Origin: Gammaproteobacteria bacterium
GTDB taxonomy: Bacteria; Pseudomonadota; Gammaproteobacteria; Tenderiales; Tenderiaceae
Length of the DNA: 62,539 bases
Assembly (NCBI GenBank): GCA_016200485.1
Contig: JACQEP010000008.1
Location: 1-62,539, forward strand
Reading direction: 5' to 3'
Positions 19,127 through 48,824 of this stretch are shown here, one piece after another; positions within the stretch are counted from its first letter, which is position 1; every line of letters starts with the position of its first letter. Both the position numbers and the translations under genes were made by a program. The notes under the pieces were generated by a model, which was given only the letters and a program-made list of their open reading frames with translations, did no database searches and had not been told where the DNA came from.

Positions 19127-19150
19127 ACAAACCTACTCATCTTGAACATT

Positions 19151-20231: not shown

Positions 20232-20232
20232 A

Positions 20233-22794: not shown

Positions 22795-22810
22795 CGGCTT
22801 GTTGAAAAAC

Positions 22811-22957: not shown

Positions 22958-23413
22958 AACATAAGACATTTTTCATAGGCTCCTAAGGCTTCATTGTTGA
23001 ATAGAAGATGGAAATTTAATGACAACACCCGCCACGACATTACGCCGTGATCTTCACCTCAATCCGAACCAGGCTTTCTTGGCTTTGAATCCGCGCGTTT
23101 GTACGCGAGAGTGAGAAGTGGGAAATCAGCAGCCTCGAAGTGACACCCCCTGGCACTTGCAAGCTTCGGTTGCATGCTGTCCGCTTGTGACCAGGGAAGT
23201 TCCAGCGGTCGTATGGTCGTATGCTGGCTGGCAGCACGATGATGACGCAACTTCCAACCAGCTACCAGGAATGACCAAAGGTCGTCCTGAAGCATGCGGG
23301 GTGAGAGACGACAGTGGACATCCGCTGGGGATGCTGCATTTTCGCCTGCCGGAGGCTTATACGCGATTTAACATAATATATATTATGCGAAGTACTCAAG
23401 GCTGATTAATTTT
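22958..23413. other. Gene-free region around the dif-like site
   Basis: No convincing gene. A 95-codon frame at 23118-23405 has no ribosome site and no family features. The dif-like site lies near the right end. Genes to the left run rightward and genes to the right run leftward, so this is the convergence point of the window. Confidence 0.55.
23366..23393 (-). other. dif: XerCD recombination site dif (candidate chromosome dif)
   Basis: On the minus strand: XerC-type arm ACTTCGCATAA, centre TATATA, XerD-type arm TTATGTTAAAT. Against the E. coli dif sequence as I remember it, the XerD arm is identical, the XerC arm matches in its inner CGCATAA, and the six-base centre differs at one position. 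XerC and XerD act here to resolve chromosome dimers, with FtsK at the septum. It lies exactly where gene direction switches, as expected of the replication terminus. The alternative is a dif copy carried by a Xer-integrating mobile element, but no such element's genes are next to it. Confidence 0.88.
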
Positions 23414-24184
23414 TCACTGACGGCACGGCCTCTGGATCATTGCCTCTGGATCATTCATTTGCAAATATTGGCGAAACAACCTTCTCATGCCGTCATCTAT
23501 CCTGCCGAACTCGAATGCAATCAGCACTTTCTTATCTTCTTTTGGTTCTGTGCGTTCCCCCTCAATACGTATTATTTGGGCATACAGCTTGAGCGTCTCA
23601 CCCGTTGCGGGGCGCAACACCAATGTAGCGATATCGTAGACATAACCAACGCCTTGTGCGGGGACTCGCGAACGCAGTAAAACTCCAGAATCGGAAATAT
23701 TCACAATTTCAGCCGCATAAGTTAGCTGAGTGTCTGTAAACCCCAGATCTACCTCGCATCCGATAAAGGGAAGAATACGTTTAGCGCAACGTCGCTCAAC
23801 AACCCCCACCGCCGCCAGCGCCAGCACCATTAATCGCTCCGGATCAAATGGTTTGGTCAGTACTGCCGTGGCACCTACTGAGTCTGCCACTGAACGCGCC
23901 TTTTGCTCGTTTTCGGCGGTTAACAAAAAAATCGGGGCTCCGGCCAGTCTGGGACGCAATTGAAGGCTCTTGAGAAACTCCGCCAACGGCATGCCTGGCA
24001 TGTTCCAGTCACTGACGATGAATTGCAAATTGCCGTCATGTTGTTGCAATAACCGTAAAGCGTGATCGGGGCTTTCGGCTTCAACTATTTCGCCCACACG
24101 TCCATCTTGACGCAAGATTGAAGCCACATACTGACGCATGGAAACAGAATCATCGATGACTAAAGCAAAATTGTTGTTACCCAT
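23414..24184 (-). CDS. Receiver-PilZ protein (c-di-GMP binding response regulator)
   Basis: 256 residues from ATG 24184 (GAGG seven bases upstream); longer in-frame starts add a Cys-rich stretch unlike a receiver domain. The receiver domain (residues 6-122) has the acidic pair Asp11-Asp12, phospho-Asp59 in VSDWNMPG and Lys111. The PilZ domain (about residues 131-245) has both c-di-GMP motifs, RCAKR at 132-136 (RxxxR) and NISDSG at 162-167 (D/NxSxxG). So it should bind c-di-GMP and respond to phosphorylation. Its leader carries a c-di-GMP-I riboswitch, so the same second messenger may control both synthesis and activity. It is the first gene right of dif. The cognate kinase is not adjacent. 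Confidence 0.9.
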   Translation of the reverse strand: MGNNNFALVIDDSVSMRQYVASILRQDGRVGEIVEAESPDHALRLLQQHDGNLQFIVSDWNMPGMPLAEFLKSLQLRPRLAGAPIFLLTAENEQKARSVADSVGATAVLTKPFDPERLMVLALAAVGVVERRCAKRILPFIGCEVDLGFTDTQLTYAAEIVNISDSGVLLRSRVPAQGVGYVYDIATLVLRPATGETLKLYAQIIRIEGERTEPKEDKKVLIAFEFGRIDDGMRRLFRQYLQMNDPEAMIQRPCRQ

Positions 24185-24312
24185 GATACACCTCGCCGCA
24201 TTGCACAATTTGCAGATACCGAAGACCGGCACTTTGTAGTACCGGGATTCCTGATCTATTATTTGCCGAAGGCGAGACGAAAACGCACAGCCGTCCCATA
24301 GGAGGATGAATC

Positions 24313-24409: not shown

Positions 24410-24546
24410 ACTCTTAAGTTGGAGTCAGTTCACATTAATACCGCAAACTTGGTCACACATAGTATTTGTCGACTAAATTGTTAAACATCTTTACATGTAT
24501 TTAGAATACCCTGAATATTGAATTTATTTCTTTAATTAACAAATAG

Positions 24547-25629
24547 TTATGAAGCCATATTATCAAGGATGGCCTTTTTGACGGCATCCATGGTTGCCTC
24601 TACCGTGATCAATGGCGACTTGCCTTGCTTGATCGCGGTGTCCGGATCCTTGAGGCCATGACCGGTGAGCGTACAGACAATCTTGCTGCCGGCAGGGATC
24701 TTGCCGTTCTTGATATCACGCAACGCCCCGGCCAGTGACGTCGCCGATGCTGGCTCACAGAACACACCTTCTTTTACTGCCAGCAGACGCTGAGCAGCGA
24801 GGATCTCTTCATCCGTGCATTCGTCGAACCAGCCATTGGATTCTTTTTGCAGTTTCCAGGCCATATCCCAGCTTTGCGGGTGGCCGATGCGGATCGCGGT
24901 GGCGATGGTCTCGGGATTATCGACCATCTTGCCGCGCATGAAGGGCGCGGAACCACTGGCCTGATAACCGACCATGCGCGGCACATTATTGACGATGCCG
25001 TGATCATGATATTCCTTGTAGCCCATCCAATGCGCCGAGATATTGCCGGCGTTGCCGACGGGCAGACAGTGAAAATCAGGTGCCGTACCCAGCTCCTCGA
25101 CAATTTCAAACGCTGCTGTTTTCTGTCCTTGCAGACGATAGGGATTGATCGAGTTGACGATAGTGACCGGCGCCAACTTGGCGACGTCCTTCACCAATTG
25201 CATTCCGGCATCGAAATTGCCCTTGATCTGGATCACCACCGCGCCATGAATTAACGCCTGCGACAACTTACCCATGGCAATTTTGCCTTCGGGAATCAGC
25301 ACAAACGCGGTAATTCCGGCACGGGATGCGTAGGCCGCAGCGGCGGCGGAGGTGTTACCCGTCGAAGCGCAAATAATAGCCTTGCTGCCTTCTTCCACGG
25401 CTTTGGTCACGGCCATGGTCATGCCGCGATCTTTGAATGAGCCGGTCGGATTCAAACCTTCGTATTTGACGTAGATGTCCACGTCCTTGCCTAATTCGCG
25501 CGGGATGTTGCTCAAGCGAATCAGCGGCGTGTTGCCCTCGCCCAGACTGATGATACGGGTGTCGTCATGCACCGGCAAACGGTCACGGTATTTCTCGATC
25601 AGGCCGGTGTAGCGGGAACGAAAGGGCAT
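24547..25629 (-). CDS. thrC: Threonine synthase
   Basis: 360 residues. The start is ATG 25629, with AAGGAG seven bases upstream, not the longer frame. It is a PLP enzyme of fold type II: the Schiff-base Lys lies in [11 protein letters not shown], the phosphate-binding loop in [13 protein letters not shown], and [12 protein letters not shown] marks the N-terminus. It converts O-phosphohomoserine to threonine in the cytoplasm. It is the short (about 360-residue) class common in proteobacteria with hom next door. It follows hom and alaC on the same strand. The 230-base gap to hom is filled by a palindromic repeat, so it may keep its own promoter. Confidence 0.95.
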
Positions 25630-25668
25630 GGTATGACTCCTTAACAATTAGCAAAAAATACAAAACCG

Positions 25669-25870
25669 ATAAAAATCCAACGCAGAGACGCGGAGGCGCA
25701 GAGATGTTACTAAATAAAAAACCTCTTCCTGCTAGAGATAAGATGAGAAAAAGAAGTAAGGGCCTAAAACATGCTCCTTTTGATTTTTCTCCGCGTCTCT
25801 GCGCCTCGGCAACCGCTCCTGCGTTGCACTACCTCGCACATCCCTGTGCTCGTCCGCGTTGGATTTTTAA
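25669..25870. repeat. Palindromic repeat between thrC and hom
   Basis: Outer arms AAAAATCCAACGC and GCGTTGGATTTTT enclose matching GCAGAGACGCGGAGG-type and CTCCGCGTCTCTGCG-type stretches. The right arm is interrupted by the 48-base module. A related repeat of the CCACAGGGGCACGGAGG type sits between hom and alaC. It codes for nothing visible. Confidence 0.7.
25805..25852 (-). repeat. 48-base inserted module, copy 2
   Basis: On the minus strand it begins CGAGCACAGGGATGTGCG and ends GGAGCGGTTGCCGAG. It corresponds to 22837-22884 with a single-base length difference and a few substitutions. It sits inside the right arm of a palindromic repeat unrelated to the REP unit holding copy 1. Confidence 0.65.
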
Positions 25871-25880
25871 AATCAAAAAA

Positions 25881-27197
25881 TCAATTAGCATCCAGCGTCT
25901 CAAGACGAATCCGCATTACGCTGCCATGGATCGTATCCAACGCTTCAATACGCTTGATCGCCTGATTCATCTGCTCTTCACGAATGTTGTGGGTCAGAAT
26001 GATAATCGGCACTTCACTTGCGCCCTCTGCCGGTTCTTTCTGCAATATTGCTTCGATGCTGATCTGCATATCGGCAAGGATACGCGTGACATCGGCCAGC
26101 ACGCCCGGACGATCCGCCGCATGCAGGCGTAGATAATAAGCGGTCTGCACCTTATCCATCGACAGGATCGGCAAGTCAGCGAGCTGATCCGGCTGGAAGG
26201 CCAGATGCGGCACCCGGTTTTCGGGATCCGCGGTTAACACGCGCACGACATCCACCAGATCCGCGACGACCGCTGAGGCGGTCGGTTCAGAACCCGCGCC
26301 AGCGCCGTAATAAAGGGTAGGCCCGACAGCGTCGCCCTTCACCAGCACGGCATTCATCACGCCATCCACATTAGCGATCAGGCGGCGATGCGGAATCAAG
26401 GTCGGATGCACGCGCAGCTCAATGCCATTATCGGTACGGCGGGCGATGCCGAGATGCTTGATCCGGTAACCCAATTCCGTCGCATAGGAAACATCAGCCG
26501 GGGTAATCTTGCTGATGCCTTCGGTGTAGACCTTCTCAAACTGCAACGGAATTCCGAACGCGATCGAGGCCAGAATAGTCAGTTTGTGGGCGGCATCGAT
26601 ACCTTCGACGTCGTAGGTCGGATCAGCTTCGGCGTAACCCAAACGTTGCGCCTCAGCCAGTACATCACCAAAGGCACGGCCCTTGTCGCGCATCTCGGTA
26701 AGGATAAAATTACCCGTACCGTTGATGATCCCGGCCAGCCATTGAATCCGGTTCCCGGCCAAGCCCTCACGGATGGCTTTGATGATCGGAATCCCACCCG
26801 CGACGGCCGCTTCAAACGCGACCATTACACCTTTCTTGTGGGCGGCGGCGAAAATCTCATTACCATGCCGGGCGATCAGTGCCTTGTTGGCGGTGACCAC
26901 ATGCTTGCCATTATTGATGGCGCGCATGACCAGATCGCGGGCCGCCGTAGTGCCGCCGATCAATTCAACCACCACCTCCACGTCCGGGTGATCGACCACG
27001 GCCAGGGTATCAGTGGTGAGTTGGATGTTTCCGGTGTCAACATTGCGAACCTTTTTAAGATCGCGGGCGGCAGCAATCACCACCTCGATCCCACGCCCGG
27101 CACGGCGCTGAATTTCCTCGGCGTTACGTTTCAATACACTGACCGTACCGCCACCGACGGTGCCCAGGCCCAGCAATCCAACTTTAACCGGTTTCAA
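25881..27197 (-). CDS. hom: Homoserine dehydrogenase
   Basis: 438 residues starting at TTG 27197, supported by GGGAG seven bases upstream and the expected MKPVKVGLLGLGTVGGGTV. The NAD(P)-binding glycine motif is at residues 8-16; the catalytic core shows ANKALIARHG, AAVAGGIPIIKAIREGLAGN and GIINGTGNFILTEM; an ACT domain (about residues 350-425, AYYLRLHAADRPGVLADVTRIL) is the likely threonine feedback site. It reduces aspartate semialdehyde to homoserine, the step before the threonine/methionine split. Organised with thrC downstream and alaC upstream. Confidence 0.96.
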   Translation of the reverse strand: MKPVKVGLLGLGTVGGGTVSVLKRNAEEIQRRAGRGIEVVIAAARDLKKVRNVDTGNIQLTTDTLAVVDHPDVEVVVELIGGTTAARDLVMRAINNGKHVVTANKALIARHGNEIFAAAHKKGVMVAFEAAVAGGIPIIKAIREGLAGNRIQWLAGIINGTGNFILTEMRDKGRAFGDVLAEAQRLGYAEADPTYDVEGIDAAHKLTILASIAFGIPLQFEKVYTEGISKITPADVSYATELGYRIKHLGIARRTDNGIELRVHPTLIPHRRLIANVDGVMNAVLVKGDAVGPTLYYGAGAGSEPTASAVVADLVDVVRVLTADPENRVPHLAFQPDQLADLPILSMDKVQTAYYLRLHAADRPGVLADVTRILADMQISIEAILQKEPAEGASEVPIIILTHNIREEQMNQAIKRIEALDTIHGSVMRIRLETLDAN

Positions 27198-27232
27198 GAT
27201 TGTTCTCCCAACTATTTGTATTTAATTAGTTC

Positions 27233-27366
27233 TTTACCACAGGGGCACGGAGGGCACAAAGAAGCTACAATTCAATCCCCCCTAGCAGGGAGAAAGAGCA
27301 TCAACGCAGCCTGTTACATGCCGGATCAATAAATTCCTCTGTGTTCTCTGTGCCTCTGTGGTTCAA
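27233..27366. repeat. Palindromic repeat between hom and alaC
   Basis: Imperfect inverted arms: ACCACAGGGGCACGGAGG near 27236 and CTCTGTGCCTCTGTGGT ending near 27363. The central 70 bases are unrelated. It is of the same general type as the repeat between thrC and hom, and both lie inside one gene cluster. Confidence 0.6.
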
Positions 27367-27368
27367 AA

Positions 27369-28577
27369 TTATTTAGCCGACACATCCGAACCCGCTTTCG
27401 AGTCACGGCGCAGCATGTCGCGGATGCCGCGTACCGCCTGACGGGTACGGTGTTCGTTTTCGATCAGACCAAAGCGGACGTGATCATCGCCATAACTGCC
27501 AAAACCGACGCCCGGTGACACCGCCACCTTGGCCTCACGCAACACCTTCTTGGAAAATTCCAATGACCCCAGGTGACGGTATTGCTCCGGAATCGGCGCC
27601 CAGACGAACATCGTCGCCTTCGGCGGCGTCACGTCCCAACCAATCGAGTTCAGGCCACTGCACAACGCATCACGGCGGTCCTGGTACATATTACTGATCT
27701 CGCGGACACAGTCCTGCGGCCCTTCCAGCGCGGCAATGGCCGCCACCTGCACCGGCGTGAACATGCCGTAATCCAGATAAGACTTCATCCGTGCCAGCGC
27801 CGCCACCAGCTTGGGGTTACCGACCATGAAACCTACCCGCCAGCCAGGCATATTGTAGCTCTTGGAAAGCGTGAAGAACTCCACCGCCAGGTCCTTGGCG
27901 CCGGGCACCTGCATGATCGAAGGCGCCACGTAACCATCGAAGGCAATATCCGCGTAGGCCAGATCATGAATGACCCAAATCTTGTGCTCGCGGCAAATCG
28001 CCACCACCTTCTCGAAGAAAGACAGCTCCACACACTGCGCCGTCGGATTGCCGGGGAAATTCAATATCAGCATCTTCGGCTTGGGCCAGGAGTCCTTGAT
28101 CGCCTTCTCCAGTTCAGCAAAAAAGTCACCGCCTTCCACCAACGGCACATGGCGGATATCCGCCCCGGCGATGACAAAGCCATAGGGATGGATCGGGTAG
28201 GCGGGATTCGGCACCAGTACCGCATCACCCGGCCCCACCGTGGCCAGTGCCAGATGGGCCAGACCTTCCTTGGAACCGATGGTCACAATCGCCTCGCTCT
28301 CGGGATCGAGCTGTACCTGGAAGCGGCGCTCATACCAACCGCAAATTGCCTTACGCAGGCGCGGGATACCGCGCGACAAGGAATAGCGGTGAGTATCGCC
28401 CCGTTGCGCCGCCTCAATCAGTTTATCGACGATATGCTGTGGTGTCGGCTGGTCCGGATTACCCATGCCGAAATCGATGATGTCCTCCCCACGGGCGCGG
28501 GCCTTCGCCTTCAAATCGCCAACGATATTGAACACGTACGGGGGCAGGCGTTTAATTCTTGGAAAATCGTCGATCAA
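27369..28577 (-). CDS. alaC: Alanine transaminase AlaC-type aminotransferase
   Basis: 402 residues from TTG 28577, with GGAAG eight bases upstream; the product then begins [19 protein letters not shown] as in relatives, while the longer frame from 28676 adds unrelated residues. PLP aminotransferase class I features: [32 protein letters not shown], and the Schiff-base Lys in [15 protein letters not shown]. It interconverts pyruvate/glutamate and alanine/2-oxoglutarate. The alaC-hom-thrC arrangement is common in beta- and gammaproteobacteria. It diverges from the Mth938-like gene, with about 170 bases between them for promoters. Confidence 0.92.
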
Positions 28578-28750
28578 GGTCGTACTTCCACTGCTGATGA
28601 AATAACAAAAGCTCCGCCCGCGGGCAGAGCCAGTATACTGGGCGCTAACATTACCGAGGCTGACTAACCCTGTCAATTACCACGCGTTTATGACCTTGAA
28701 AGCGGGAATAACATGACCCAAAATGGGGTTCCAAAACGAAAGGACTCACC

Positions 28751-29194
28751 ATGGCTTTCAACCAGGACATTGATTTTAGCATCTACACCATTCGTAGTTA
28801 TCAGCGTGGTGAAATCATTGTCAGCCTCCCCCCCCGTCAGGAAGAGATGGATGAGGCCCGCAATGCCAGCCCCAACGCTAAACCGCGCCTGCCCTACGAG
28901 AGGCTCAGTCAAAGCTTTATCATCACTGCCGAAACCGTGATCCGTGATTGGCCCCCACAAGACATCAGCACCCTCAGCCGTGACCACATCGCCCAACTCG
29001 CCGCCTATGATCCCGAGGTCGTCCTCATCGGTACCGGTACCCGCCTCACCTGGCCCGACCGCGCCCTCCTCACCCCATTGATGGAACAACATATCGGCTT
29101 TGAAGTGATGGACACCGCCGCCGCCTGCCGCACCTACAACGTGCTCAGCCTGGAAGGCAGAAAGGTGGTGGCAGGATTGATGATGATTCGGTAG
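28751..29194 (+). CDS. Mth938/NDUFAF3-like domain protein
   Basis: 147 residues, a single Mth938-like domain. Characteristic parts are IRSYQRGEIIVS near the N-terminus, RLSQSFIITAETVIRDWPP, LAAYDPEVVLIGTG, and the C-terminal MDTAAACRTYNVLSLEGRKVVAGLM. Eukaryotic relatives (NDUFAF3) help assemble complex I; the bacterial role is not established. Its position about 5 kb from the nuo operon is notable but not strong evidence, as this gene also sits beside alaC in other genomes. A GGACTCACC stretch precedes the ATG. Cytoplasmic. Confidence 0.87.
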   Translation: MAFNQDIDFSIYTIRSYQRGEIIVSLPPRQEEMDEARNASPNAKPRLPYERLSQSFIITAETVIRDWPPQDISTLSRDHIAQLAAYDPEVVLIGTGTRLTWPDRALLTPLMEQHIGFEVMDTAAACRTYNVLSLEGRKVVAGLMMIR

Positions 29195-29500
29195 ATTTAT
29201 TTTTGGGTATGCACCGTACTTCCCAATCATCACTATTCCTTGCCTGCGCCAGGCATTACATCAGTCTCCACCGTTAACAACCTCCAACAATAATCCGTCC
29301 GGCACAACGCTTGGCGACCGCAACTCAATAAAGACGGTCGGCAATCATGCCTGCGATTCACTGCAATGCCACTTCAGTTCCTTGAGGACTTTTCCCGACT
29401 CAGTGATTAATTGGTAATTCACCGCAGCAGCTGCTAAATAAATATCAAGGCTTCCACATTTGCATTCACATGAATGAGATCGTAACAAGCGAGGGCAGGG
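29195..29500. other. Intergenic region before the phospholipase gene
   Basis: About 300 bases without a supported gene. A short run in a minus-strand frame (FIELRSP..VPDGLLLEVV) faintly resembles a glyoxalase/VOC-like C-terminus but is too short to call. AGGG repeats (CGAGGGCAGGGATG) precede the phospholipase start, and the octamer GGGCAGGG at 29493 fits a KOPS consensus pointing away from dif. Confidence 0.4.
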
Positions 29501-30397
29501 ATGAGGGGATTTAGCTTACATATCGTTTTGGGTTGTGGTTTGCTGTTACTCGTTGGCGTGCAGGCGGATGCCGACGATGCCAATCAGGAAAATAAAGTCG
29601 ATACCATTAGTCACTATCTTAGCGGCAACGAACCCTCCTATTTCGTGTTTGCCCGCGATAAAGGAGATGATGACTATCATGGTGAGTTTTATCTTTCGAT
29701 CAAATATCCTCTTCTGCAACGACCAATTCGATATCTCTTGGGAAAAAATTCCGCACTTAATTTCAATTACAATGGCCTGTATGATTTTTACCTGGCATCA
29801 CGCTACTCCTCCCCCATCATCTCACGGCGGCAAAATCCTGGGCTGATGTACGAATACCGTTTTTTGGGGCACAACACATTACGCAAGGCAAAGTTTGGCT
29901 ACTTTCATGAATCAAATGGTCAGACGATCGATAATCAAGCTGACTTTTTAAACACCACTAATGTCCAGGATTATGTCAGCCGCGGCTGGGACTATTTGCA
30001 TCTGGAGTTGAGCGTTACACCCGAGGAGAGTTGGTACGTCTACTTGCAGGGGCACCTCTACTTAAACAAACAGATGTTCAAACTTGACAGAGAGGAAAAA
30101 TGGCCATGGGAAGTCCCTGTCGGAGTAGCGTTGCCAATCGATGAATATGACGGCCTGAGATTAATCGTCGGCCAGACGCTTAAACGTAAACATTGGTACT
30201 TCGACGAAATAAAACTCAGCGCCATTTATCGAACGGGGTATCATGATCCAGGCCATAACTCGACCCGCAGATTAGAGGCTACGTTCAGGATTTTTGATGT
30301 TCCGTTATACCTATATTATTTTGACGGCTATGGGATCAACATTGCTTCATATTTCATGAAGAGCTCGTCTTATGGCATTGGTTTTGAACTTTGGTAG
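29501..30397 (+). CDS. pldA: Outer-membrane phospholipase A (OMPLA family)
   Basis: 298 residues. A signal peptide (HIVLGCGLLLLVGVQA) is followed by a 12-strand barrel-like protein ending in an aromatic residue (GIGFELW). The active-site motif FHESNGQ provides the His and Ser that correspond to His142/Ser144 of E. coli PldA. The third triad position, Asn156 in SRSWN, appears here as SRGWD, so Asp replaces Asn. Family members cleave acyl chains from outer-leaflet phospholipids after dimerisation with calcium. The swap could still support catalysis, since Asp is the usual acid in serine hydrolases. It converges on rpoS. Confidence 0.83.
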   Translation: MRGFSLHIVLGCGLLLLVGVQADADDANQENKVDTISHYLSGNEPSYFVFARDKGDDDYHGEFYLSIKYPLLQRPIRYLLGKNSALNFNYNGLYDFYLASRYSSPIISRRQNPGLMYEYRFLGHNTLRKAKFGYFHESNGQTIDNQADFLNTTNVQDYVSRGWDYLHLELSVTPEESWYVYLQGHLYLNKQMFKLDREEKWPWEVPVGVALPIDEYDGLRLIVGQTLKRKHWYFDEIKLSAIYRTGYHDPGHNSTRRLEATFRIFDVPLYLYYFDGYGINIASYFMKSSSYGIGFELW

Positions 30398-30461
30398 CTG
30401 CTCTCAATCTGCGACATGACAACGATGTGGGTTCATTCATGTGTCGCTTGTGGCGACAAGT

Positions 30462-30495
30462 GGGTGGATTGCGCCGCAACGCGGTTAACCCACCC
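30462..30495. terminator. Hairpin between the convergent pldA-like gene and rpoS
   Basis: GGGTGG (30462-30467) pairs with CCACCC (30490-30495) around a GC-rich inner part. A smaller hairpin, TGTCGC / GCGACA, precedes it at 30442-30458. No long T tract follows on either strand, so termination strength is uncertain. Confidence 0.45.
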
Positions 30496-30506
30496 TGCTT
30501 TCAACT

Positions 30507-31496
30507 TTATCCCAACAACTGATCGCCAGAAATGCCCTGTTTTTCAAGTATACGCCGCAGTTTACGCAACGCCTCAACCTGTATTTGGCGAACACGCTCA
30601 CGCGTTACACCGATGCGTTCGCCGACTTCCTCAAGGGTGGCGATCTCATCGCCATTGAGTCCAAAACGCTGCTCAACGACTTGGCGCTGTTTTTCATTTA
30701 ACTGCGACAACCAGGCGGCGATACTGGCCTGGATTTCTTCCTCCTGCAGTTGCGCGGCGGGATCGATTTGATTTTCGTCGGCGATCGTTTCCTGCAACAA
30801 GCGATCCTTATCAAGACTCGCCGATTCAACCATTGATAGCTGTTCCTGCAAACCTAAAATCATTTGCACCTCAGCCAGGGGTAATTCGAGCCTGGCGGCG
30901 ACTTCTTCGGGACTGGGATCGTGATCGAGCTCTTGGGCAAGCTTGCGGGCAATTTTTTGATAGCTATTGATTTGCTTGACGACGTGGACCGGGAGACGAA
31001 TAGTGCGAGTTTGATTCATTATCGCTCGCTCGATGGTCTGACGTATCCACCAGGTGGCGTAGGTGGAAAATCGAAACCCGCGTTCAGGATCGAATTTTTC
31101 CACCGCATGAATCAACCCAAGATTGCCTTCTTCGATCAAATCCAGAAAGGCGAGTCCACGATTCATGTAATAACGGGCAATTTTGACAACAAGGCGCAGA
31201 TTACTTTCGATCATGCGCCGTCGCGCATCATCATCCCCTTTAAGCGCACGCCGGGCGTAATAAACTTCTTCTTCGGCGGACAATAATGGCGAAAAGCCAA
31301 TCTCACTGAGGTAAATACGCGTCGCATCGACCACGACTTCAACCGCCTTCCAACTGGAAGCGGTCTCAGCATCTGCGGGAATTCCCACCTCATCCTTGAG
31401 TAGCTCCTCTGGTTCTGTCCAGAGTTTATTTGCCTCGGTGTCGTCAGTCAGTTCATCCGACTGCGGTTGCTCCACCGAACGGTTTTTCTCCACCAC
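30507..31496 (-). CDS. rpoS: Stationary-phase sigma factor RpoS
   Basis: 329 residues, almost the E. coli length. Region 1.2 ([10 protein letters not shown]), region 2 ([52 protein letters not shown], then [19 protein letters not shown]), region 3 ([13 protein letters not shown]) and region 4 ([17 protein letters not shown]...[19 protein letters not shown]) are all present. It directs RNA polymerase to starvation and stress genes. The start is GTG 31496 with a G-rich site upstream. Its identity as RpoS, not a housekeeping sigma, rests on length and on nlpD, yqaA, pcm and surE lying directly upstream in the classic order. The rpoS promoter usually lies inside nlpD. Confidence 0.96.
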
Positions 31497-31607
31497 CCCA
31501 ACACCCCCCCAATTATGATGCGTTGAGCGATACTTGACAGTCTAACCGCAAAAAACAGTTTCCAACAAGCATAATGTCGAAGTGCAAAAACAATATTAAA
31601 CAGGTAG

Positions 31608-32390
31608 TTATGATCCACCTTTTGGGAGATAGCGGAGCGGATCAACGGGTTTACCATCGGCCCGTATCTCAAAGTGCAATTTTACCCGATCCGCCTCGGT
31701 ACTCCCCATGCGGGCAATGCCCTGACCACGACTAACTTGCTCACCTTCTTTGACCAATAATTCGCGATTATGAGCATAGGCGCTGAGATATTTGTCATTG
31801 TGCTTGATGATCAGCAACTTGCCATAACCGCGCAATCCATCGCCACTATAAACCACTTTGCCACTCGCTGCTGCCTTAACGGCATCGCCGCTCATACCAC
31901 TGATAGCAATTCCCTTCTTGCCTTGCGACCTGGCATCATAACGATGCACCACATCGCCTTGTGCGGGCCATTGCCATTCAACTTCATCACGAACGATGGG
32001 CGCTGCATCCACTGGTGCAATGGCTTGACGCGAATCGGGATGAGCAGGTGTTTTTGCAACTGTTGTCGGCTGTGAGGATCGCACCGGTGCTTTGCCGGGG
32101 CTATGTTTTTTGGGTTGAACTGCCCCCTCCTCGCCATCGACTGGCGGCACCACTCGCAACCAGTCACCATAATGCACAGTGTAAGGAGGCTCTATATCAT
32201 TCCACCGGGCGACATCGTGATAGTCACGATCGTAGCTCCAGCTAATTGAATACAGCGTATCACCGTCACGCACCTGGTGATAAAAATGACTGCCACAACC
32301 AGGCAGACTCGATGTTGCGATGAGAAATACCACTGTCTTTAACCAGACCCAAGTGTGCTCTTGAATCCGTTGCTTCGCATTAAACCGCAA
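31608..32390 (-). CDS. nlpD: NlpD-like lipoprotein with LysM and degenerate M23 domain
   Basis: 260 residues. The lipoprotein signal ends in SLPGC, so the mature protein is anchored in a membrane of the envelope. A LysM domain (VRDGDTLYSISWSYDRDYHDVARWN...) binds peptidoglycan; a Pro/Ala/Lys-rich linker follows; the C-terminal M23 fold covers about residues 145-258. The first zinc motif HxxxD of active enzymes is replaced by KGIAISG, while YAHN and LHFEIR remain. That is how NlpD/EnvC-type amidase activators look: a fold kept without hydrolysis. It should activate the cell-division amidase AmiC. It is 12 bases from yqaA and upstream of rpoS. Confidence 0.93.
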   Translation of the reverse strand: MRFNAKQRIQEHTWVWLKTVVFLIATSSLPGCGSHFYHQVRDGDTLYSISWSYDRDYHDVARWNDIEPPYTVHYGDWLRVVPPVDGEEGAVQPKKHSPGKAPVRSSQPTTVAKTPAHPDSRQAIAPVDAAPIVRDEVEWQWPAQGDVVHRYDARSQGKKGIAISGMSGDAVKAAASGKVVYSGDGLRGYGKLLIIKHNDKYLSAYAHNRELLVKEGEQVSRGQGIARMGSTEADRVKLHFEIRADGKPVDPLRYLPKGGS

Positions 32391-32402
32391 TAGCCAATAC
32401 CT

Positions 32403-32984
32403 TTAAGAAAACTTACTGAACAGATACAACACAACCACCAATACCACCAACAGCCAACCGATAAGATCAACGTAGTGACGCAACATTCGCTCCATGCGCT
32501 CACCACCCCACTTCATCAGTCCGGCCACCATAAAAAAACGCGCGCCACGGCCAACTAAAGAAGTGAGTACAAATGGAACAAACGCCATGCTCATCACACC
32601 AGCGCCGATGGTAAATAGTTTATAGGGAATTGGCGAGAATGCGGCAATAAAAATCACCCAAATTCCTTCCTCAATAAACCATTGTTTCACTTTAAGAAAT
32701 CCATCCCAGTAACCCACCTGATGCAAAATGGGTTCCACAGCTTCGAATGCCAGCATGCCAATCAGGTAGCCAAACGCCCCACCCGCTACTGAGGTCAGGG
32801 TCGTTAATAGGGCAAAAAACCAGGCTCGCCGGGGCGCCGCCAATGACATCGGTGCCAACATCACGTCGGGTGGAATTGGGAAAAAAGAAGATTCCGCAAA
32901 ACTTATCGCGCCCAAAAACCACGGGGCATGCCGATGTCTCGACCAGTTCAGCGCTTTATCATAGAGCAAGGAAAAAAACCGCAT
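32403..32984 (-). CDS. yqaA: YqaA/DedA-family membrane protein
   Basis: 193 residues with four to five hydrophobic segments. The conserved stretch ISFAESSFFPIPPDVMLAPMSLA is typical of this DedA/SNARE-associated branch, as are FAAFSPIPYKLFTIGAG (in the form IAAFSPIPYKLFTIGAGV) and GRGARFFMVAGLM. The DedA superfamily includes undecaprenyl-phosphate and phospholipid flippases, but this branch is uncharacterised. Its ATG overlaps the pcm stop by one base (TGATG), so it is part of the surE-pcm-yqaA-nlpD unit. Inner membrane. Confidence 0.9.
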   Translation of the reverse strand: MRFFSLLYDKALNWSRHRHAPWFLGAISFAESSFFPIPPDVMLAPMSLAAPRRAWFFALLTTLTSVAGGAFGYLIGMLAFEAVEPILHQVGYWDGFLKVKQWFIEEGIWVIFIAAFSPIPYKLFTIGAGVMSMAFVPFVLTSLVGRGARFFMVAGLMKWGGERMERMLRHYVDLIGWLLVVLVVVLYLFSKFS

Positions 32985-33646
32985 CAGCGATTTCCAGATA
33001 ACAGGGGCACGAACTCGACTTCTTCGATCGGCATCCTGTGAAATCCCTCTTCGGTACGGGTGATCAGCACCAACTCTTGTTTACCACTCTGCCCCACAGG
33101 GGCGATCAAACGCCCACCGATGGCCAACTGCTCAAGCAGTGCAGCGGGAATTTCCAGCGGTGCTGCGGTCATGACAATGACATCATAGGGCGCATATTCC
33201 TGCCACCCCATTTGGCCATCGACGTGTTTGAGCCTGAGATTGTGGAGTTTCAATTCACGAAATCGTTGCCGGGCACGCTGCGACAATTCACCTATCCGTT
33301 CAACGCTAAAAACCTGCTCGGCCACTTGCGCCAAAATTGCCGCCTGATAACCGGAACCGGTACCAATTTCCAGCACCTTCTTGCAGGGGCCGGTTTCAAT
33401 GACAATTTCAGTCATCCGCGCCACGATATACGGTTGCGAGATCGTCTGACCAAAGCCAATGGGCAATGCGGTGTCATCATAGGATCGACTGGCCAATGCT
33501 TCATCGACAAAAATGTGCCGCGGTGTATTGCGGAATACATCCAACACCTTGGGATTGCGTATCCCCTGTTCCTGCAGGCGCGAGATCAGGCGCTCGCGGG
33601 TGCGCTGCGAAGTCATACCAATACCGCGATGCCGAGGACCATTCAT
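32984..33646 (-). CDS. pcm: Protein-L-isoaspartate O-methyltransferase
   Basis: 220 residues from ATG 33646, five bases after surE; an ATG at 33670 inside surE and one at 33616 are alternatives. Markers are [45 protein letters not shown] (substrate loop) and [17 protein letters not shown], the S-adenosylmethionine-binding motif. It methylates damaged isoaspartyl residues so they can revert to aspartate. It acts in the cytoplasm and is co-transcribed with surE and rpoS-linked genes, matching a stationary-phase repair role. Confidence 0.95.
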
Positions 33647-33651
33647 GAAAC

Positions 33652-34398
33652 TTACATTCCTGATAACCACGTTGCCACTTGTTCGAGCGCAGTATAACGC
33701 GTCAGATCGATTTGAATGGGGGTTACTGATATTCGGTTGCGCCGAACGGCATGAAAATCCGTGCCCGGCCCGGCATCGGCCTCAGAACCCGCAGGTCCCA
33801 CCCAGTAAATATCCCGTCCACGGGGATCATGCGCCTTGATGACGGGCTCGGATTTATGACGATGCCCAAGCCGGGTCGCCTCAAAGCCTTCGATTTTCTC
33901 CCAAGGAATATCCGGTACATTGACGTTAAGAATGGTATCCGCAGGTAACGGATCACGTAACAACCGATCGATCAGTTGCATAGCGGCTTTCGCCGCCGTG
34001 GCATAGTGTTTTGGATCGGCGCCCACCAACGATACCGCTATCGCAGGAAACCCCAGAAAGCGGCCTTCCGTTGCCGCCGCGACGGTACCCGAATATAAAA
34101 CATCATCCCCCATGTTGGCCCCGGCATTAATGCCGGCGACTACCATGTCTGGTTCTTTATCGAGCAGGCCGGTAATTGCAAGATGCACACAATCGGTGGG
34201 GGTGCCGTCGACATAGATCACGTTGTTAGACACATAATGGGCACGCAGCGGTTGATCAAGGGTCAGGGAATTGCTCGCGCCGCTACGATTCCGCTCCGGC
34301 GCGACCAGGGTAACATCAGCGATTTGACGAAGGGACTCCGCCAGACACTGGATACCCGGAGCAAGATAACCATCATCATTGCTCAGCAGAATACGCAT
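33652..34398 (-). CDS. surE: 5'-nucleotidase SurE
   Basis: 248 residues. The N-terminus [16 protein letters not shown] has the paired Asp of the metal site; [14 protein letters not shown] and [24 protein letters not shown] complete the conserved core. SurE removes phosphate from nucleoside monophosphates and related compounds. It heads the surE-pcm-yqaA-nlpD-rpoS run; upstream is the nuoN 3' end with about 100 bases between, where the surE promoter must lie. Confidence 0.96.
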
Positions 34399-34504
34399 AT
34401 TGCCATCACCAACATCCAGCCAGGATACCCGCCCGCCGACACGGCGGAACCTTTGTTACAACCATCCCGCTTAACTCGGGGATGAACACGGAATCCAATT
34501 CCAA

Positions 34505-35941
34505 CTAGAATACCGTTAAACAGTAGCGCATCAATGCTGCCGGGAAGATGCCCAACACCAACATCGCCAAACAGTTTACCGACAACACAACTCGCATGTC
34601 CGTACCCGTTTCGATGCGACCAGCCTCTTCAGGTTTGTCAAAATACATGACCTTGATGACACGCAGGTAATAAAACGCACCCACCACGGAGAAGACGACT
34701 GCGTAAACGGCAAGCCAGACCAGATCGATTTGAACGACGGATTGAATCACTGACAGCTTGGCATAGAAACCCACGGTCGGTGGTACCCCTGCCATTGAGA
34801 ACATCAGGATCAACATCATGGCCGCCAGCCATGGACTTCGTTCGTTCAGGCCTTTGAAGTCTTCAATCTTATCCGCCTCGAAACCGGCACGGCTGAGCGC
34901 GATGATCATGCCGAAACCACCCAGCCCCATCAGCGCATAAACAATCACATAGAACATGGACGCGGAGTAGCCATTTTCGGTGCCGGAGAGGATACCCAGC
35001 AGGAGAAAACCGACATGGGCAATCGTCGAATACGCCAACATGCGTTTGAGATTGGTTTGCGCGATGGCAATGACGTTACCAATGGCAATCGACAAAATCG
35101 ACAACACAATCAGCAAGTCTTGCCATTGATGATGCAAATCGCCCAATCCTTCTACCAGGAGCCGCATGATCATGGCAAATGCAGCGATCTTGGGCGCGGT
35201 GCCGATGAACAACGTGACCGCCGTTGGCGCACCGTGATAAACATCCGGTATCCACATGTGGAACGGCACAGCGCCCAACTTGAAGGCCAAGCCCACCACC
35301 ACAAACACCAAACCAAACATCAACACAATATTATCGCTATTGGAGGCCACATAGCCGCCGATGACGGCCAGATCCAGGCTGCCGACCATGCCGTAGATCA
35401 TGGACATGCCATACAACAACATCCCGGAGGCTAGCGCGCCGAGGACAAAATACTTCATCGCGGCTTCAGTGGCATTCAACGAATCCCGTTGAAACGCGAC
35501 CAGGGCGTAAAGCGAGAGCGACAACAGCTCCAGCCCCAGATATACGGTCAATAGGCTATGGGCGGAGACCATGACCATCATCCCGAGTACAGCAAACAGC
35601 CCCAGTACGAAAAACTCACCGCGATACAGACTGCGCTGTTTGAGATAACGCCGCGAATAGAGAAATACCACTGCCGTAACCAGATAGATAAAGAGCTTAA
35701 GTACATTACCCATCTGATCAATCACGAAACTGTCATTGAAGGTCAGCACACGTTCACTTTCTGACAGGCTGATGGTCAGCATCGCTGCCCCAGCCAGTGT
35801 CGCCAGTGACATAAAAAAGGTCACGACGCGATCACTGTCTTTGAGATAAAGATCAATAATCAGGATCGCGCAGGCCATGCCCAAAACAAAAATTTCAGGC
35901 AGTGCTGGGATAAAATTTGGCATTACAAAATTCATGCTCAC
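34505..35941 (-). CDS. nuoN: NADH-quinone oxidoreductase subunit N
   Basis: 478 residues, multi-spanning. It is one of the three antiporter-like proton-channel subunits of complex I: the conserved Lys/Glu helices include [19 protein letters not shown], and [21 protein letters not shown] is family-diagnostic. Start GTG 35941 has GGAAG six bases upstream; ATG 35935 is an alternative. It is the last gene of nuoA-N. Confidence 0.95.
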
Positions 35942-35974: not shown

Positions 35975-37492
35975 TTACATCAGCTTCGATGTCACTGCCT
36001 GCTGCAATAAATGCTCTACCGAACTATGCATTACATCCAGCAATGGCGCCGGCCAGACCCCCAGCAATAACACCAATACCGCCAGACTACCCAACACCAG
36101 CCCTTCACGGGCATTGATATCTTTGAGTTCAGCGACATGTTTGTTCTTGATCTCGCCAAACACCACCCGCTTCACCATCCACAAGGTATAGGCGGCGCCG
36201 AGGATCAATGTCGTCGCGGCCAGGAATGCGTACCAGAAATTCGCTTTAAAGGCGCTCAGCACCACCATGAATTCGCCGACGAAGCCAGAAGTTCCCGGCA
36301 ATCCCGCATTGGCCATGGCGAAGAAGACCATTAAGGCGGTAAACTTGGGCATGGTATTCACAACACCGCCGTAATCACTGATGTTACGGCTATGCATCCG
36401 GTCATACATGACGCCCACACAGAGGAACATCGCGCCGGAGACAAAACCGTGTGAGATCATTTGCACCAGGGCGCCTTCAACACCCATCGCCGCCCCTGCA
36501 ACTGCACCTGTCTGCCGGAAAATATCGAACACCACGAAGAAACCCAGCGTGACAAATCCCATATGCGAAATTGAAGAATAGGCGATCAGCTTCTTCATGT
36601 CTTCCTGCGCCAGAGCCACCAACGCGATATAGACCACCGCAATCAGTGACATGGCGATGATCATCCAATCCAGCTCCGCACTGGCATCCGGCGCAATCGG
36701 CAACATGAAGCGGACAAAGCCGTAGGCGCCCAGCTTGAGCATGATCGCCGCCAGGATCACGGAACCGCCGGTAGGCGCCTCGACGTGAGCGTCCGGCAAC
36801 CAGGTATGCACTGGCCACATCGGCACCTTGACTGCAAACGCGATCAGGAAGGCAAGGAAGATCAGTATCTGGGCGGTCATGCTGACCGGCACGGCGTGGA
36901 AATCGAGAATGCTGAAGCTGTTGGCCTGGAAATAAAGATAGACCAGCGCAATCAGCAGGAATACCGAACCAAAAAACGTATAAAGGAAAAATTTCAGGGT
37001 CGCGTAAACACGCCGCGCGCCACCCCAGATACCGATCACCAAAAACATGGGGATCAGCATCCCTTCCCAGAATACGTAGAACAAGATGGCATCCAGCGCT
37101 GCGAAAACGCCATTCATCATCCCTTCCATGATCAGGAATGAGGCCATGTATTGGGCAACTTTATAGTCGATGACTTCCCAGGCGGCGATCACCACCAGAA
37201 TCGTGGTGAACGTGGTCAGCAGAATAAGCGGCATGGAGATGCCATCCACGCCGAGGAAATAATTGATATTGAATGCCGGGATCCAGGAGGCTTTTTCGAC
37301 AAACTGCATGTCGGCGGTGGTGACATTAAACTCGGTATAGAGCGGCAATGACACCAGAAAGCCGACGATTGCCGCCGTCAGTGCGGTCCAGCGCACGGCA
37401 CAGTTATTGCCGCTGGCGCCCACGGCCAATACAAGCAAGCCGCCGAGTACCGGCAACCAAACCACCAAACTAAGAAGCGGAAAATCCGACAT
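35975..37492 (-). CDS. nuoM: NADH-quinone oxidoreductase subunit M
   Basis: 505 residues. Antiporter-like subunit with the conserved Glu helix around ALDAILFYVFWEGMLIPMFL and the Lys helix FAVKVPMWPVHTWLPDAHVEAPTGGSV. EDMKKLIAYSSISHMGFVTLG is the family signature. It lies in the membrane arm and pumps protons. It is preceded by nuoL and followed by nuoN, with short gaps. Confidence 0.96.
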   Translation of the reverse strand: MSDFPLLSLVVWLPVLGGLLVLAVGASGNNCAVRWTALTAAIVGFLVSLPLYTEFNVTTADMQFVEKASWIPAFNINYFLGVDGISMPLILLTTFTTILVVIAAWEVIDYKVAQYMASFLIMEGMMNGVFAALDAILFYVFWEGMLIPMFLVIGIWGGARRVYATLKFFLYTFFGSVFLLIALVYLYFQANSFSILDFHAVPVSMTAQILIFLAFLIAFAVKVPMWPVHTWLPDAHVEAPTGGSVILAAIMLKLGAYGFVRFMLPIAPDASAELDWMIIAMSLIAVVYIALVALAQEDMKKLIAYSSISHMGFVTLGFFVVFDIFRQTGAVAGAAMGVEGALVQMISHGFVSGAMFLCVGVMYDRMHSRNISDYGGVVNTMPKFTALMVFFAMANAGLPGTSGFVGEFMVVLSAFKANFWYAFLAATTLILGAAYTLWMVKRVVFGEIKNKHVAELKDINAREGLVLGSLAVLVLLLGVWPAPLLDVMHSSVEHLLQQAVTSKLM

Positions 37493-37528
37493 TCACCCGA
37501 GCCCTTTTTTAAACTTATTCCTGAATTC

Positions 37529-39484
37529 TTATACTAAAACCAGGAGCCAACCTAGCATCACCAGCAATCCGATAATCATCCAGAATGCGTAATGGTAGAG
37601 GTAACCCGTTTGCCATTGCCGGATGACGCCCGACAACCAACCCACGCCATTGGCCGTGCCATTGACCATGATGCCGTCTATCGCCTTGACGTCGCCAAAT
37701 TGCCAGAACATGCGTCCAGCCTTGCGGCTGCCACTGGCGAAGAACATTTCATTGAAGGCATCAAAACCATACGCTTTTGTTAGCACGTTATATACACCCT
37801 GGAACTTGTCTTTGATCTGCGCCGGCAATTCAGGCCGCTGCATATACAGATAATACGCCGTGCCGACACCGGCGGCAGCCAACCAGAACGGCAGCCCCAT
37901 AATGCCATGCAGCACGAAGCCAAGCGCTCCGGTGTAATGCTCACCCAGATGACCCAGCACGTCGTGATGTTCACTGACATATATCGCCTTGCCAAAATAA
38001 TCACCGAACAGCCATGGACCGACTGCAATGGCACCGATGATCACTGACGGGATCGCCAGCAATACCAGCGGTACGGTGATCACGGCCGGTGATTCATGCA
38101 GGTGTTCCCGGGTATGGTGATCCATGCGCTCCTTGCCATGGAACACGAGGAAGAACATGCGGAAGCTATAAAGCGCCGTCACGAATACGCCAATCAACAC
38201 ACACAGGTAGGCAAAGGTCGAACCTGCGACATGAGACTCGGCCACAGCTTCGATGATGGCATCCTTGGAGAAGAAACCGGACATACCGGGGAATCCAATC
38301 AATGCCAGCGAACCGACCAACATGCACCAGTAGGTGATTGGCATGTATTTTTTCAGGCCACCCATCTTGCGAATATCCTGTTCATGGTGCATGGCGACGA
38401 TGACCGAACCTGCCGCCAGGAACAACAGCGCCTTGAAAAAGGCGTGGGTCATCAGATGGAAAATACCGGCAGCGTAAGCTGAGGCGCCGAGCGCCACGGT
38501 CATATAACCCAGCTGTGACAAGGTGGAATACGCCACCACGCGCTTGATGTCGTTCTGCACCAACCCGAGGAAGCCCATGAACAGCGCCGTGATGGCACCA
38601 ATCACCAGTACCACAGTCAACGCAGTTTCAGACAATTCATAGAGAGGTGACATACGAGCCACCATGAAGATACCGGCGGTGACCATGGTCGCGGCGTGGA
38701 TCAGGGCCGAGATCGGGGTCGGGCCTTCCATCGAATCCGGCAGCCACACATGTAACGGCACTTGTGCCGATTTACCCATCGCGCCGATAAATAGCAGGAT
38801 ACAAATCACTGTCATCAACGACCAATCGATCCCAGGAATGATCTGAATGGTCAGATCTTTCATCAGCGGTGCGGCGTTAAACACATCTGCATAATCAAGG
38901 CTGTTGAAATACATCAACACGGCCGCGATGCCGAGCAGGAAGCCAAAGTCACCGACACGGTTGACGAGAAACGCCTTGAGGTTGGCGTAGATGGCGGATT
39001 CCTTTTTGAACCAGAAACCGATCAGCAAATAGGACACCAGGCCTACCGCCTCCCAACCGAAGAACAGCTGCATGAAATTGTTGGCCATCACCAACATCAA
39101 CATGGAGAAGGTAAACAGGGAGATATAACTGAAAAAGCGCTGATAGCCAGGATCATCGTGCATATAACCAACGGTGTAGATATGCACCATCAACGAGACA
39201 AAAGTCACAATCATCATCATCGAGGCCGTCAGTTCATCGATCATGAAACCGACCTCGAAGCGGATGCCATCACTCACACCCCAGGTATAAACAGTCGCGT
39301 TATAGGCAGCGCCATCATTGAGAACGATGTTATTAAAGACTATCGCTGACAAAGCAAAGGCCACGACCACGCCAATGATCGTGACCCAATGCGCCCCGCT
39401 ACGCCCGATTGTTTTCCCAAAGAAACCGGCAATCACCGATCCGATGAGCGGCGCCAGTACAATCCAAAGATAAAGACTCTCCAT
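37529..39484 (-). CDS. nuoL: NADH-quinone oxidoreductase subunit L
   Basis: 651 residues, the largest membrane-arm subunit. The antiporter core includes MQLFFGWEAVGLVSYLLIGFW, AMGKSAQVPLHVWLPDSMEGPTPISALIHAATMV and NDIKRVVAYSTLSQLGYM. The C-terminal part (after about residue 510) holds the long lateral helix that spans the membrane arm, followed by a last membrane segment. It pumps protons at the distal end of complex I. Confidence 0.96.
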   Translation of the reverse strand: MESLYLWIVLAPLIGSVIAGFFGKTIGRSGAHWVTIIGVVVAFALSAIVFNNIVLNDGAAYNATVYTWGVSDGIRFEVGFMIDELTASMMMIVTFVSLMVHIYTVGYMHDDPGYQRFFSYISLFTFSMLMLVMANNFMQLFFGWEAVGLVSYLLIGFWFKKESAIYANLKAFLVNRVGDFGFLLGIAAVLMYFNSLDYADVFNAAPLMKDLTIQIIPGIDWSLMTVICILLFIGAMGKSAQVPLHVWLPDSMEGPTPISALIHAATMVTAGIFMVARMSPLYELSETALTVVLVIGAITALFMGFLGLVQNDIKRVVAYSTLSQLGYMTVALGASAYAAGIFHLMTHAFFKALLFLAAGSVIVAMHHEQDIRKMGGLKKYMPITYWCMLVGSLALIGFPGMSGFFSKDAIIEAVAESHVAGSTFAYLCVLIGVFVTALYSFRMFFLVFHGKERMDHHTREHLHESPAVITVPLVLLAIPSVIIGAIAVGPWLFGDYFGKAIYVSEHHDVLGHLGEHYTGALGFVLHGIMGLPFWLAAAGVGTAYYLYMQRPELPAQIKDKFQGVYNVLTKAYGFDAFNEMFFASGSRKAGRMFWQFGDVKAIDGIMVNGTANGVGWLSGVIRQWQTGYLYHYAFWMIIGLLVMLGWLLVLV

Positions 39485-39495
39485 GGCGCTCCCGC

Positions 39496-39801
39496 TTATC
39501 CCTTCAGGCTGTCCAGATGTTCAACATTGATACTGCGGCGGTTACGGAACCACACGACCAGTATCGCAAGACCAATTGCCGCTTCAGCGGCTGCCACCGT
39601 CAGGATGAAGAACACGAATACCTGGCCGGCAATATCCCCCAAATAATAGGAGAAGGCGACAAAATTCAGATTCACTGCCAGCAACATCAACTCAATGGCA
39701 ATCAACAGCACGATGACATTCTTGCGGTTGATAAATATACCCGCCACACTGATGCAAAACAGGATTGCACCCAGCAGCAGAAAGTGTGATAACGCAATCA
39801 T
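39496..39801 (-). CDS. nuoK: NADH-quinone oxidoreductase subunit K
   Basis: 101 residues, three membrane helices, MrpC-like. The conserved Glu in [17 protein letters not shown] and a second one in [13 protein letters not shown] are needed for proton movement in the family. It lies between nuoJ and nuoL, 11 bases from nuoL. Confidence 0.96.
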
Positions 39802-39840
39802 AATCCCCTCATTGGTTCGTAATCTACGAACCTGGATCCC

Positions 39841-40446
39841 TTATTTGGCTTCTTTTTTTTCAGCCGCCATCTTCACTATACGGACGCGATCCTCGCGCTT
39901 CACTGCAACCTGCGCACCTGGGTCCTGATGCTTACTATCCGGCCGACGCCGCAGGGTCAACGCAATCGCTGCAATAATCGCCACCACCAGGATGACAGCA
40001 GCCAGCTCAAAGGAATAGACATAGTCGGTATACAGCACTCGTCCCAGTTCCTTGGTATTACTGTAATCCGCCGCATGACGCACCGGTGCGGCCACTTTGT
40101 CGAGGCCGAAGTTCTTGGCGCCGACCACCATGCTCAGCTCAATCACCATAATCACCGCTACCGCGATACCCACCGGCAGGTAACGAATAAAACCTTCACG
40201 TAGAATAGCGATATTGATATCCAGCATCATCACCACAAACAGGAACAAGACCATGACCGCGCCGACGTAGACCAGCACCAGCGTGATCGCAAGAAACTCG
40301 GCCTCCAGCATCAACCAGATCGCGGCACTGGTGAAAAAAGTCAGCACCAGAAACAGAACGGCATGCACAGGATTGCGCACGGTAATCACCGCCAACGCAG
40401 AAGCGATCAAGATCGCGGCAAAGAAGTAAAAAATTACGGTGTCCAT
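39841..40446 (-). CDS. nuoJ: NADH-quinone oxidoreductase subunit J
   Basis: 201 residues with five membrane segments and a charged C-terminal tail (RREDRVRIVKMAAEKKEAK in reduced form). The conserved loop AEFLAITLVLVYVGAVMVLFLFVVMML carries the pi-bulge helix of the subunit, next to the quinone chamber. Its upstream gap to nuoI is unusually long (about 185 bases) because a palindromic element is inserted there. Confidence 0.95.
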   Translation of the reverse strand: MDTVIFYFFAAILIASALAVITVRNPVHAVLFLVLTFFTSAAIWLMLEAEFLAITLVLVYVGAVMVLFLFVVMMLDINIAILREGFIRYLPVGIAVAVIMVIELSMVVGAKNFGLDKVAAPVRHAADYSNTKELGRVLYTDYVYSFELAAVILVVAIIAAIALTLRRRPDSKHQDPGAQVAVKREDRVRIVKMAAEKKEAK

Positions 40447-40481
40447 GTCCTGTCGTTATTCTCTTTTAAATTAAAACTAAA

Positions 40482-40622
40482 GGACACCTCTATAAATTCG
40501 ATCAAGCCGATGATGGCAAGGCGCAAACGGGCGAAAAAGCGCAGTGTACATGTAGTACATGAGCATTTTGAGCCCGTTTGCAACACCGCCAGCGCGGCTT
40601 CAGCGAATTTATAGAGGTGTCC
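40482..40622. repeat. Nested palindromic element between nuoI and nuoJ
   Basis: A 141-base element with perfect 19-base inverted ends (40482-40500 GGACACCTCTATAAATTCG, 40604-40622). Inside are CAAGCCG/CGGCTTC and a further stem GCAAACGGGC / GCCCGTTTGC. The core has CAAGGCGCA, then AGTGTACATGTAGTACAT, then TGCAACACCG. This core is shared with the inner hairpin of the 7424-7696 element, although the outer ends are unrelated. It lies eight bases after the nuoI stop and 35 before the nuoJ start, inside an operon, so it must be transcribed through. No ORF of note. Confidence 0.85.
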
Positions 40623-40630
40623 CATCGCTG

Positions 40631-41119
40631 TCATCGGTATTGCGAATCCACCGCCCGGTCAGCCGCAATCTGTTTTTCCAGACGATCGCCCACCGCCAGG
40701 AGTTTTTCCTTGGTCATGATCTGCTCACCGCGTCGTTCGAAGTGATACTCGAACTCACGGGTCTCAACAATCGCATCAACCGGACAGGCCTCTTCGCATA
40801 AGCCGCAATAGATACACTTGAACAGATCAATGTCATAAAGCGTGGTGCGGCGGCTGCCGTCCTCACGCTGATCCGACTCAATCGTAATCGCCAGTGCCGG
40901 GCACACCGCTTCACATAGCTTACAGGCGATACAACGTTCTTCACCATTCGGGTAACGCCGCAACGCATGCAAGCCACGGAAACGCGGCGACATTGGCGTC
41001 TTCTCTTCCGGGTATTGCACCGTGATCTTTTTGGCGAAGAAATACTTCCCCGTCAACTTGAGACCAATCAACAATTCCCAGAGTATGAAACTCTTAACAT
41101 AGTGTTGCATTGTTTTCAT
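40631..41119 (-). CDS. nuoI: NADH-quinone oxidoreductase subunit I
   Basis: 162 residues. Two [4Fe-4S] ligand sets, [16 protein letters not shown] and [16 protein letters not shown], hold clusters N6a and N6b that pass electrons towards NuoB. A short N-terminal amphipathic part attaches it to the membrane arm. It lies 18 bases after nuoH. The stop is followed closely by the palindromic element. Confidence 0.96.
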
Positions 41120-41137
41120 CGCAGCACCTCCCAGGGC

Positions 41138-42184
41138 CTAATCGAACCAGGGGCCGATATGGCCCATGATCGCCAGACCAACCACCAACAGCCAGACGAT
41201 GGTGACTGGAATAAACACTTTCCATCCGAGACGCATAATCTGGTCATACCGATAACGCGGGAATGTCGCCCGGAACCACAAGAAGAAAAACAGGAAAAAC
41301 GAAATCTTGGCCAGCAACCATACGATGCCTGGTACCCATGCAAAGAGTGCTTCAAGGCCCGGAACTCCCTGGAACGGCGAAAGCCAGCCGCCTGCAAACA
41401 TAGTCGCGCACAACGCCGACACCAGAATCATGTTGGCGTATTCCGCCAGGAAGAAGACGGCGAAGGTCATCCCGGAATACTCAACATGGAAACCGGCAAC
41501 AATTTCAGATTCACCTTCCGCCACATCGAAGGGTGCACGGTTGGTTTCAGCAAGTCCAGAAATAAAATAGACCAGAAACAGCGGAAACAGCGGCAACCAG
41601 TACCAGTGCAGGAAGCTGCCTTGCTGGGCCAACACAATCTCACGCAAATTCAAACTACCCGCCGCCATCAACACACCGACCAAGGCAAAACCCATGGCGA
41701 TTTCATAAGATACCACCTGTGCCGATGAACGTAACGCCCCGAGGAAGGCATACTTCGAATTGGAGGCCCAGCCAGCGATGATAATGCCGTAAACCCCCAT
41801 TGAAGTCATGGCCAGAATATAAAGTAGACCAGCATCGATATTCGCCAATACCAGTTGCTTATCAAACGGTATCACCGCCCACGCTGCCAATGCCGGTGCC
41901 AACGTCAGGATCGGTGCAAAGAGAAACAGGAATTTATTGGCATTGGTCGGAATCACCACCTCCTTGAATGCCAGCTTGATACCGTCGGCAATGGGTTGCA
42001 ACAAGCCACGCGGGCCTACCCGGTTCGGGCCGATACGCACCTGGATGTAACCAATCACCTTGCGTTCAGCCAGCGTCAAATAGGCAACGCTAAGCATGAT
42101 CGGCACCACAATGACGACGATCTTGATAATAATCTGCAGCAATACGGGCAAACTGCTCCAGAGTGTGAGTGCTGTATCCAACAT
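41138..42184 (-). CDS. nuoH: NADH-quinone oxidoreductase subunit H
   Basis: 348 residues, eight-helix membrane protein at the joint of the two arms, near the quinone site. Diagnostic stretches are [37 protein letters not shown] and [27 protein letters not shown], with the acidic residues of the E-channel. It lies about 20 bases after nuoG, with no frame problem. Confidence 0.96.
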
Positions 42185-42204
42185 ACCCGCTATTGTCTCC
42201 GTCC

Positions 42205-44607: not shown

Positions 44608-44633
44608 TAATTTTCTTCATCTCAGCGCTCACT

Positions 44634-45899: not shown

Positions 45900-45904
45900 G
45901 GCCG

Positions 45905-47652: not shown

Positions 47653-47657
47653 GCCGC

Positions 47658-48266: not shown

Positions 48267-48275
48267 AATTTATGC

Positions 48276-48770: not shown

Positions 48771-48824
48771 TCATCCGTTGGCAGCCAGCAGCATTCGCGG
48801 ACGCTCGCATCCTCGCAAATTCAG

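Follow-up and report, generated by a model that had tools for sequence, protein, structure and literature searches.

A probable single chromosomal dif site in the terminus region of a Tenderiaceae genome, adjoining the nuo and rpoS genes

Proteobacterial dif sites have been tabulated, and their distance to the GC-skew maximum has a median of 7.3 kb and a third quartile of 21.4 kb (PMC2731167). In the same work, position 13 is the most variable place in the central hexamer, and the dif of Thiobacillus denitrificans, ACTTCGCATAATGTATATTATGTTAAAT, lies outside genes, 9.3 kb from the skew maximum. Most chromosomes with dif are symmetric, whereas in Pseudomonas aeruginosa PAO1-UW, which has unequal arms, both the skew and chromosome segregation keep to dif, and replication ends about 0.7 Mb from it, opposite the origin (PMC6199493).

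Here we analysed a window of 62,539 nucleotides that constitutes an entire contig (JACQEP010000008.1) of the 3.06 Mb, 25-contig assembly GCA_016200485.1, from a gammaproteobacterium of the family Tenderiaceae. A sequence-only reading had placed a dif site at 23366-23393 on the minus strand, and the 28-mer ACTTCGCATAATATATATTATGTTAAAT, i.e. ACTTCGCATAA-TATATA-TTATGTTAAAT, is present there exactly as it was given. We conclude that this is almost certainly the single chromosomal dif, the XerC/XerD dimer-resolution site in the terminus region. The site and its surroundings are organized as follows.

23366..23393, minus strand: dif site, with XerC arm ACTTCGCATAA, centre TATATA and XerD arm TTATGTTAAAT
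23366..23376, minus strand: XerD-binding arm TTATGTTAAAT, from direct sequence, exactly matching the XerD arms of several sites in the table of PMC2731167
23377..23382, minus strand: central hexamer TATATA, from direct sequence
23383..23393, minus strand: XerC-binding arm ACTTCGCATAA, from direct sequence, an arm shared with the T. denitrificans and Methylobacillus flagellatus sites of PMC2731167
22339..22794, plus strand: nearest gene on the left of dif, PNPOx_N-like, transcribed toward the site
23414..24232, minus strand: nearest gene on the right of dif, for a response regulator receiver plus PilZ protein, transcribed toward the site, its end 20 bases away
24547..35941, minus strand: thrC, hom, alaC-like, rpoS, nlpD-like, pcm, surE and nuoN, the start of the minus block (pcm and surE by position only)
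29501-30397, plus strand: phospholipase A1 gene, a lone plus gene inside the minus block
35975..49181, minus strand: remainder of the nuo operon, from nuoM through nuoA, named by gene order and after the sequence-only reading

Within nuo, two identities were tested, NuoN against a profile and NuoF through its homologues.

The 28-mer shows the 11-6-11 layout with the conserved XerD arm and inner XerC arm of proteobacterial XerCD/dif systems. It lies in the intergenic gap 22795-23413, between ORFs that end at 22794 and 23414, and is AT-rich, with G or C at 5 of its 28 positions against about 0.52 across the window. Both arms are the same as in the dif of T. denitrificans, and the sole difference from that site is position 13, A here and G there (PMC2731167). 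The resemblance to the E. coli site is less close, with four mismatches (positions 1, 2, 4 and 13) and an identical XerD arm and inner XerC arm; the earlier description of these differences as the outer XerC arm and one central base was thus accurate. The identical 28-mer occurs once in each of 97 other genome records, whose titles are mostly those of gammaproteobacteria, with two Neisseriaceae. These records include Kushneria pakistanensis, Aeromonas diversa and Salinicola tamaricis, in which the gene surroundings appear to differ. Versions with one to three mismatches occur in 21 of 55 relatives (its own genome left out), always one per genome. That the site would be a chance AT-rich palindrome, and the flip of gene direction beside it a coincidence, is scarcely credible given that the 18-base inner dif pattern has one match in the window at up to three mismatches, versus 0.01 expected by chance, and that the XerD arm and inner XerC arm are fully conserved across many genomes. 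Such a reading draws on the fact that many operons give long same-strand runs, so that the direction flip alone is weak evidence.

The sequence-only reading had also considered that several identical sites flanking mobile elements would speak against a chromosomal dif. A search of the whole assembly at up to three mismatches returned this site and no further one, and the reversed control pattern gave no match at the same threshold; nor did the window contain a second whole dif-like site at up to eight mismatches, besides the site's own palindrome. This single occurrence largely refutes the view that the site is an attachment-site copy left behind by a mobile element hitchhiking on the Xer system. 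We consider that view highly improbable; the genes next to dif included none recognisable as phage genes. In its favour, the exact 28-mer is carried by two viral contigs, one of 10.7 kb (L181, 9934-9961) and one of 8.1 kb (L182, 1702-1729), which are possibly phages integrating through host XerCD, and the stretch at 18-21 kb, left of dif, with its RES, nucleotidyltransferase and Mrr-like genes, was perhaps acquired. This small-gene cluster (18079-21363, plus strand) codes for a RES-domain protein preceded by a small gene, an ArsR-like/nucleotidyltransferase protein (MntA-like, below cut-off) with a small gene after it, as well as an Mrr-type nuclease, and looks like a toxin-antitoxin/defence patch.

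The genes xerC, xerD and ftsK, which the sequence-only reading had proposed to look for, are all present according to profile searches of the assembly. One XerD (contig 4, 387.6 bits versus an equivalog cut-off of 329.6), one XerC (contig 17, 380.5 bits versus 335.15) and one FtsK gamma domain (contig 5, E 8.9e-28) were detected. The gamma domain is the part of FtsK that reads KOPS and touches XerD. At the sequence level, the dimer-resolution system of this genome is thus complete. By analogy with the well-studied family, each 11-base arm would be bound by its recombinase, XerC or XerD, and strands would be exchanged where the arms meet the 6-base centre; at division this reaction would resolve a chromosome dimer into two monomers, with FtsK likely bringing both dif sites together and activating XerD. 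An additional tyrosine recombinase, resembling integron integrases (494 bits versus a cut-off of 265), is encoded on contig 7 (L026, 1114-2097), directly upstream of a gene resembling mnmE.

The convergence of gene direction on dif that had first been noticed holds for the ORFs counted as genes in the window: on the left of dif 19 of 21 are on the plus strand (two on minus), and on the right the minus strand holds 30 of 31 (one on plus). Genes on both sides read toward dif probably because transcription mostly runs in the same direction as the replication forks, and both arms would end in this region.

Several other features of the window were recorded. A c-di-GMP-I riboswitch (24317-24406, minus strand; 67 bits, gathering threshold 35) lies 84 bases upstream of the receiver-PilZ gene at 23414-24232, and this c-di-GMP sensor RNA thus precedes a gene whose product is likely c-di-GMP-binding. 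A protein of 2501 residues is encoded at 54703-62208 (minus strand); it has putative Ig domains and 29 stretches of RTX calcium-binding repeats. On the plus strand are a gene for a histone-deacetylase-family protein (10022-10945) and, beside dnaK-dnaJ-like genes, one for a bifunctional fructose-1,6-bisphosphate aldolase/phosphatase (2728-3939), a type that is mainly archaeal.

GC skew supports the assignment of the site to the terminus region and does not fix the terminus to the base. It had been anticipated that the skew would switch at dif, and the best single changepoint of the raw skew in the window, at 23428, indeed falls 35 bases from the site (support range about 22900-25788), with non-coding skew of +0.035 on the left and -0.062 on the right. 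The cumulative maximum, however, is at 11291, 12 kb left of dif, an offset within the proteobacterial spread of PMC2731167, and the left side of dif is limited to 23 kb. Fourfold-degenerate sites were compared with a reference drawn from contigs 4 and 7, comprising 72 genes taken as leading (mean +0.10) and 32 as lagging (mean -0.27), which is not wholly independent since its strands were set by contig skew. Against this reference, the right side is clearly leading-on-minus, and the left 23 kb show no plus-leading signal and fall clearly on neither side (summed log-likelihood about -1.9). Part of the raw skew flip is therefore gene direction itself: genes carry their own G/C bias, so that a flip in direction makes the skew flip, and the two arguments for a terminus are not independent. 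The KOPS octamer GGGNAGGG occurs five times in the window versus 6.4 expected, that is, at chance, with four of the five pointing toward dif; the sequence-only reading rightly took the number as too small to decide and missed the octamers at 15720 (+) and 60011 (-).

Taken together, single copy, intergenic position, nearby skew change and the encoded XerC, XerD and FtsK bear out the original identification of dif. The accompanying term 'replication terminus' is supported only in part, given the lack of a clear fourfold-site signal on the left, the contig end 23 kb to the left and the precedent of PMC6199493. Since skew keeps to dif even if forks meet at another place (PMC6199493), we prefer 'dimer-resolution site in the terminus region'. 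That forks normally meet away from this dif, which would then mark the terminus of segregation and not of replication, is a possibility to be taken seriously even if we hold it to be the less probable one; it would refine our interpretation without excluding it. Besides the P. aeruginosa case, it finds an argument in the family member G004, whose near-closed 3.657 Mb contig (L017, G004:C1) carries dnaA at 3.175 Mb and its dif at 2.035 Mb, distances that make the arms strongly unequal (about 1.14 and 2.52 Mb) provided that the contig is the circular chromosome. Arms may therefore be unequal in this family. Conversely, the present assembly, being in 25 contigs, gives no arm lengths, and the prevailing symmetry of dif-bearing chromosomes (PMC6199493) argues the other way. 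In G004, a local skew maximum lies about 32 kb from the homologous dif, and the fourfold-site signal near dif is similarly weak; a change of skew sign was also seen between 2.86 and 3.05 Mb, not at dnaA.

With a single dimer-resolution site in the terminus region as the preferred reading, the dif described here is ordinary and textbook, and the only local oddity is the adjoining nuo (respiratory) and rpoS (stress-sigma) genes. The first reading had inferred that housekeeping operons lie near the terminus, which is true of this genome, where rpoS is 7 kb, NuoN 11 kb and the nuo block 11-26 kb from dif, but not of G004, where the block is about 0.67-0.68 Mb away. There, NuoF (1.353 Mb) and RpoS (1.367 Mb) have the same spacing as here, about 14 kb, and in G001 nuo and rpoS are together on contig 35, with dif on contig 26. 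No nuo or rpoS orthologues were found beside dif in G001, G003, G004, G006 and G008 (stretches of 7 to 160 kb). The nuo-rpoS block is thus conserved in the family, and its nearness to dif is lineage-specific, or at least absent from the readable relatives. The only synteny match among the five family dif surroundings is a pair of PEBP-like and DUF2845 genes, 7-10 kb left of dif here and 58-60 kb left of it in G004, with order and orientation preserved.

Rearrangement of core genes relative to dif is, by inference, common, which makes the nuo-rpoS placement a minor point. We venture, as an unlikely scenario, that the lineage moved nuo-rpoS from mid-arm to 7-26 kb from dif with leading-strand orientation kept, which would give these genes the lowest dosage in fast growth and could point to a slow grower in which selection on dosage is relaxed. 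The site itself shows where the terminus region lies in a fragmented genome, so that contig 8 can be assigned to the end of both arms. For the well-described XerCD/dif system it is one further case, and the modest point that it makes is the free movement of core operons relative to dif.
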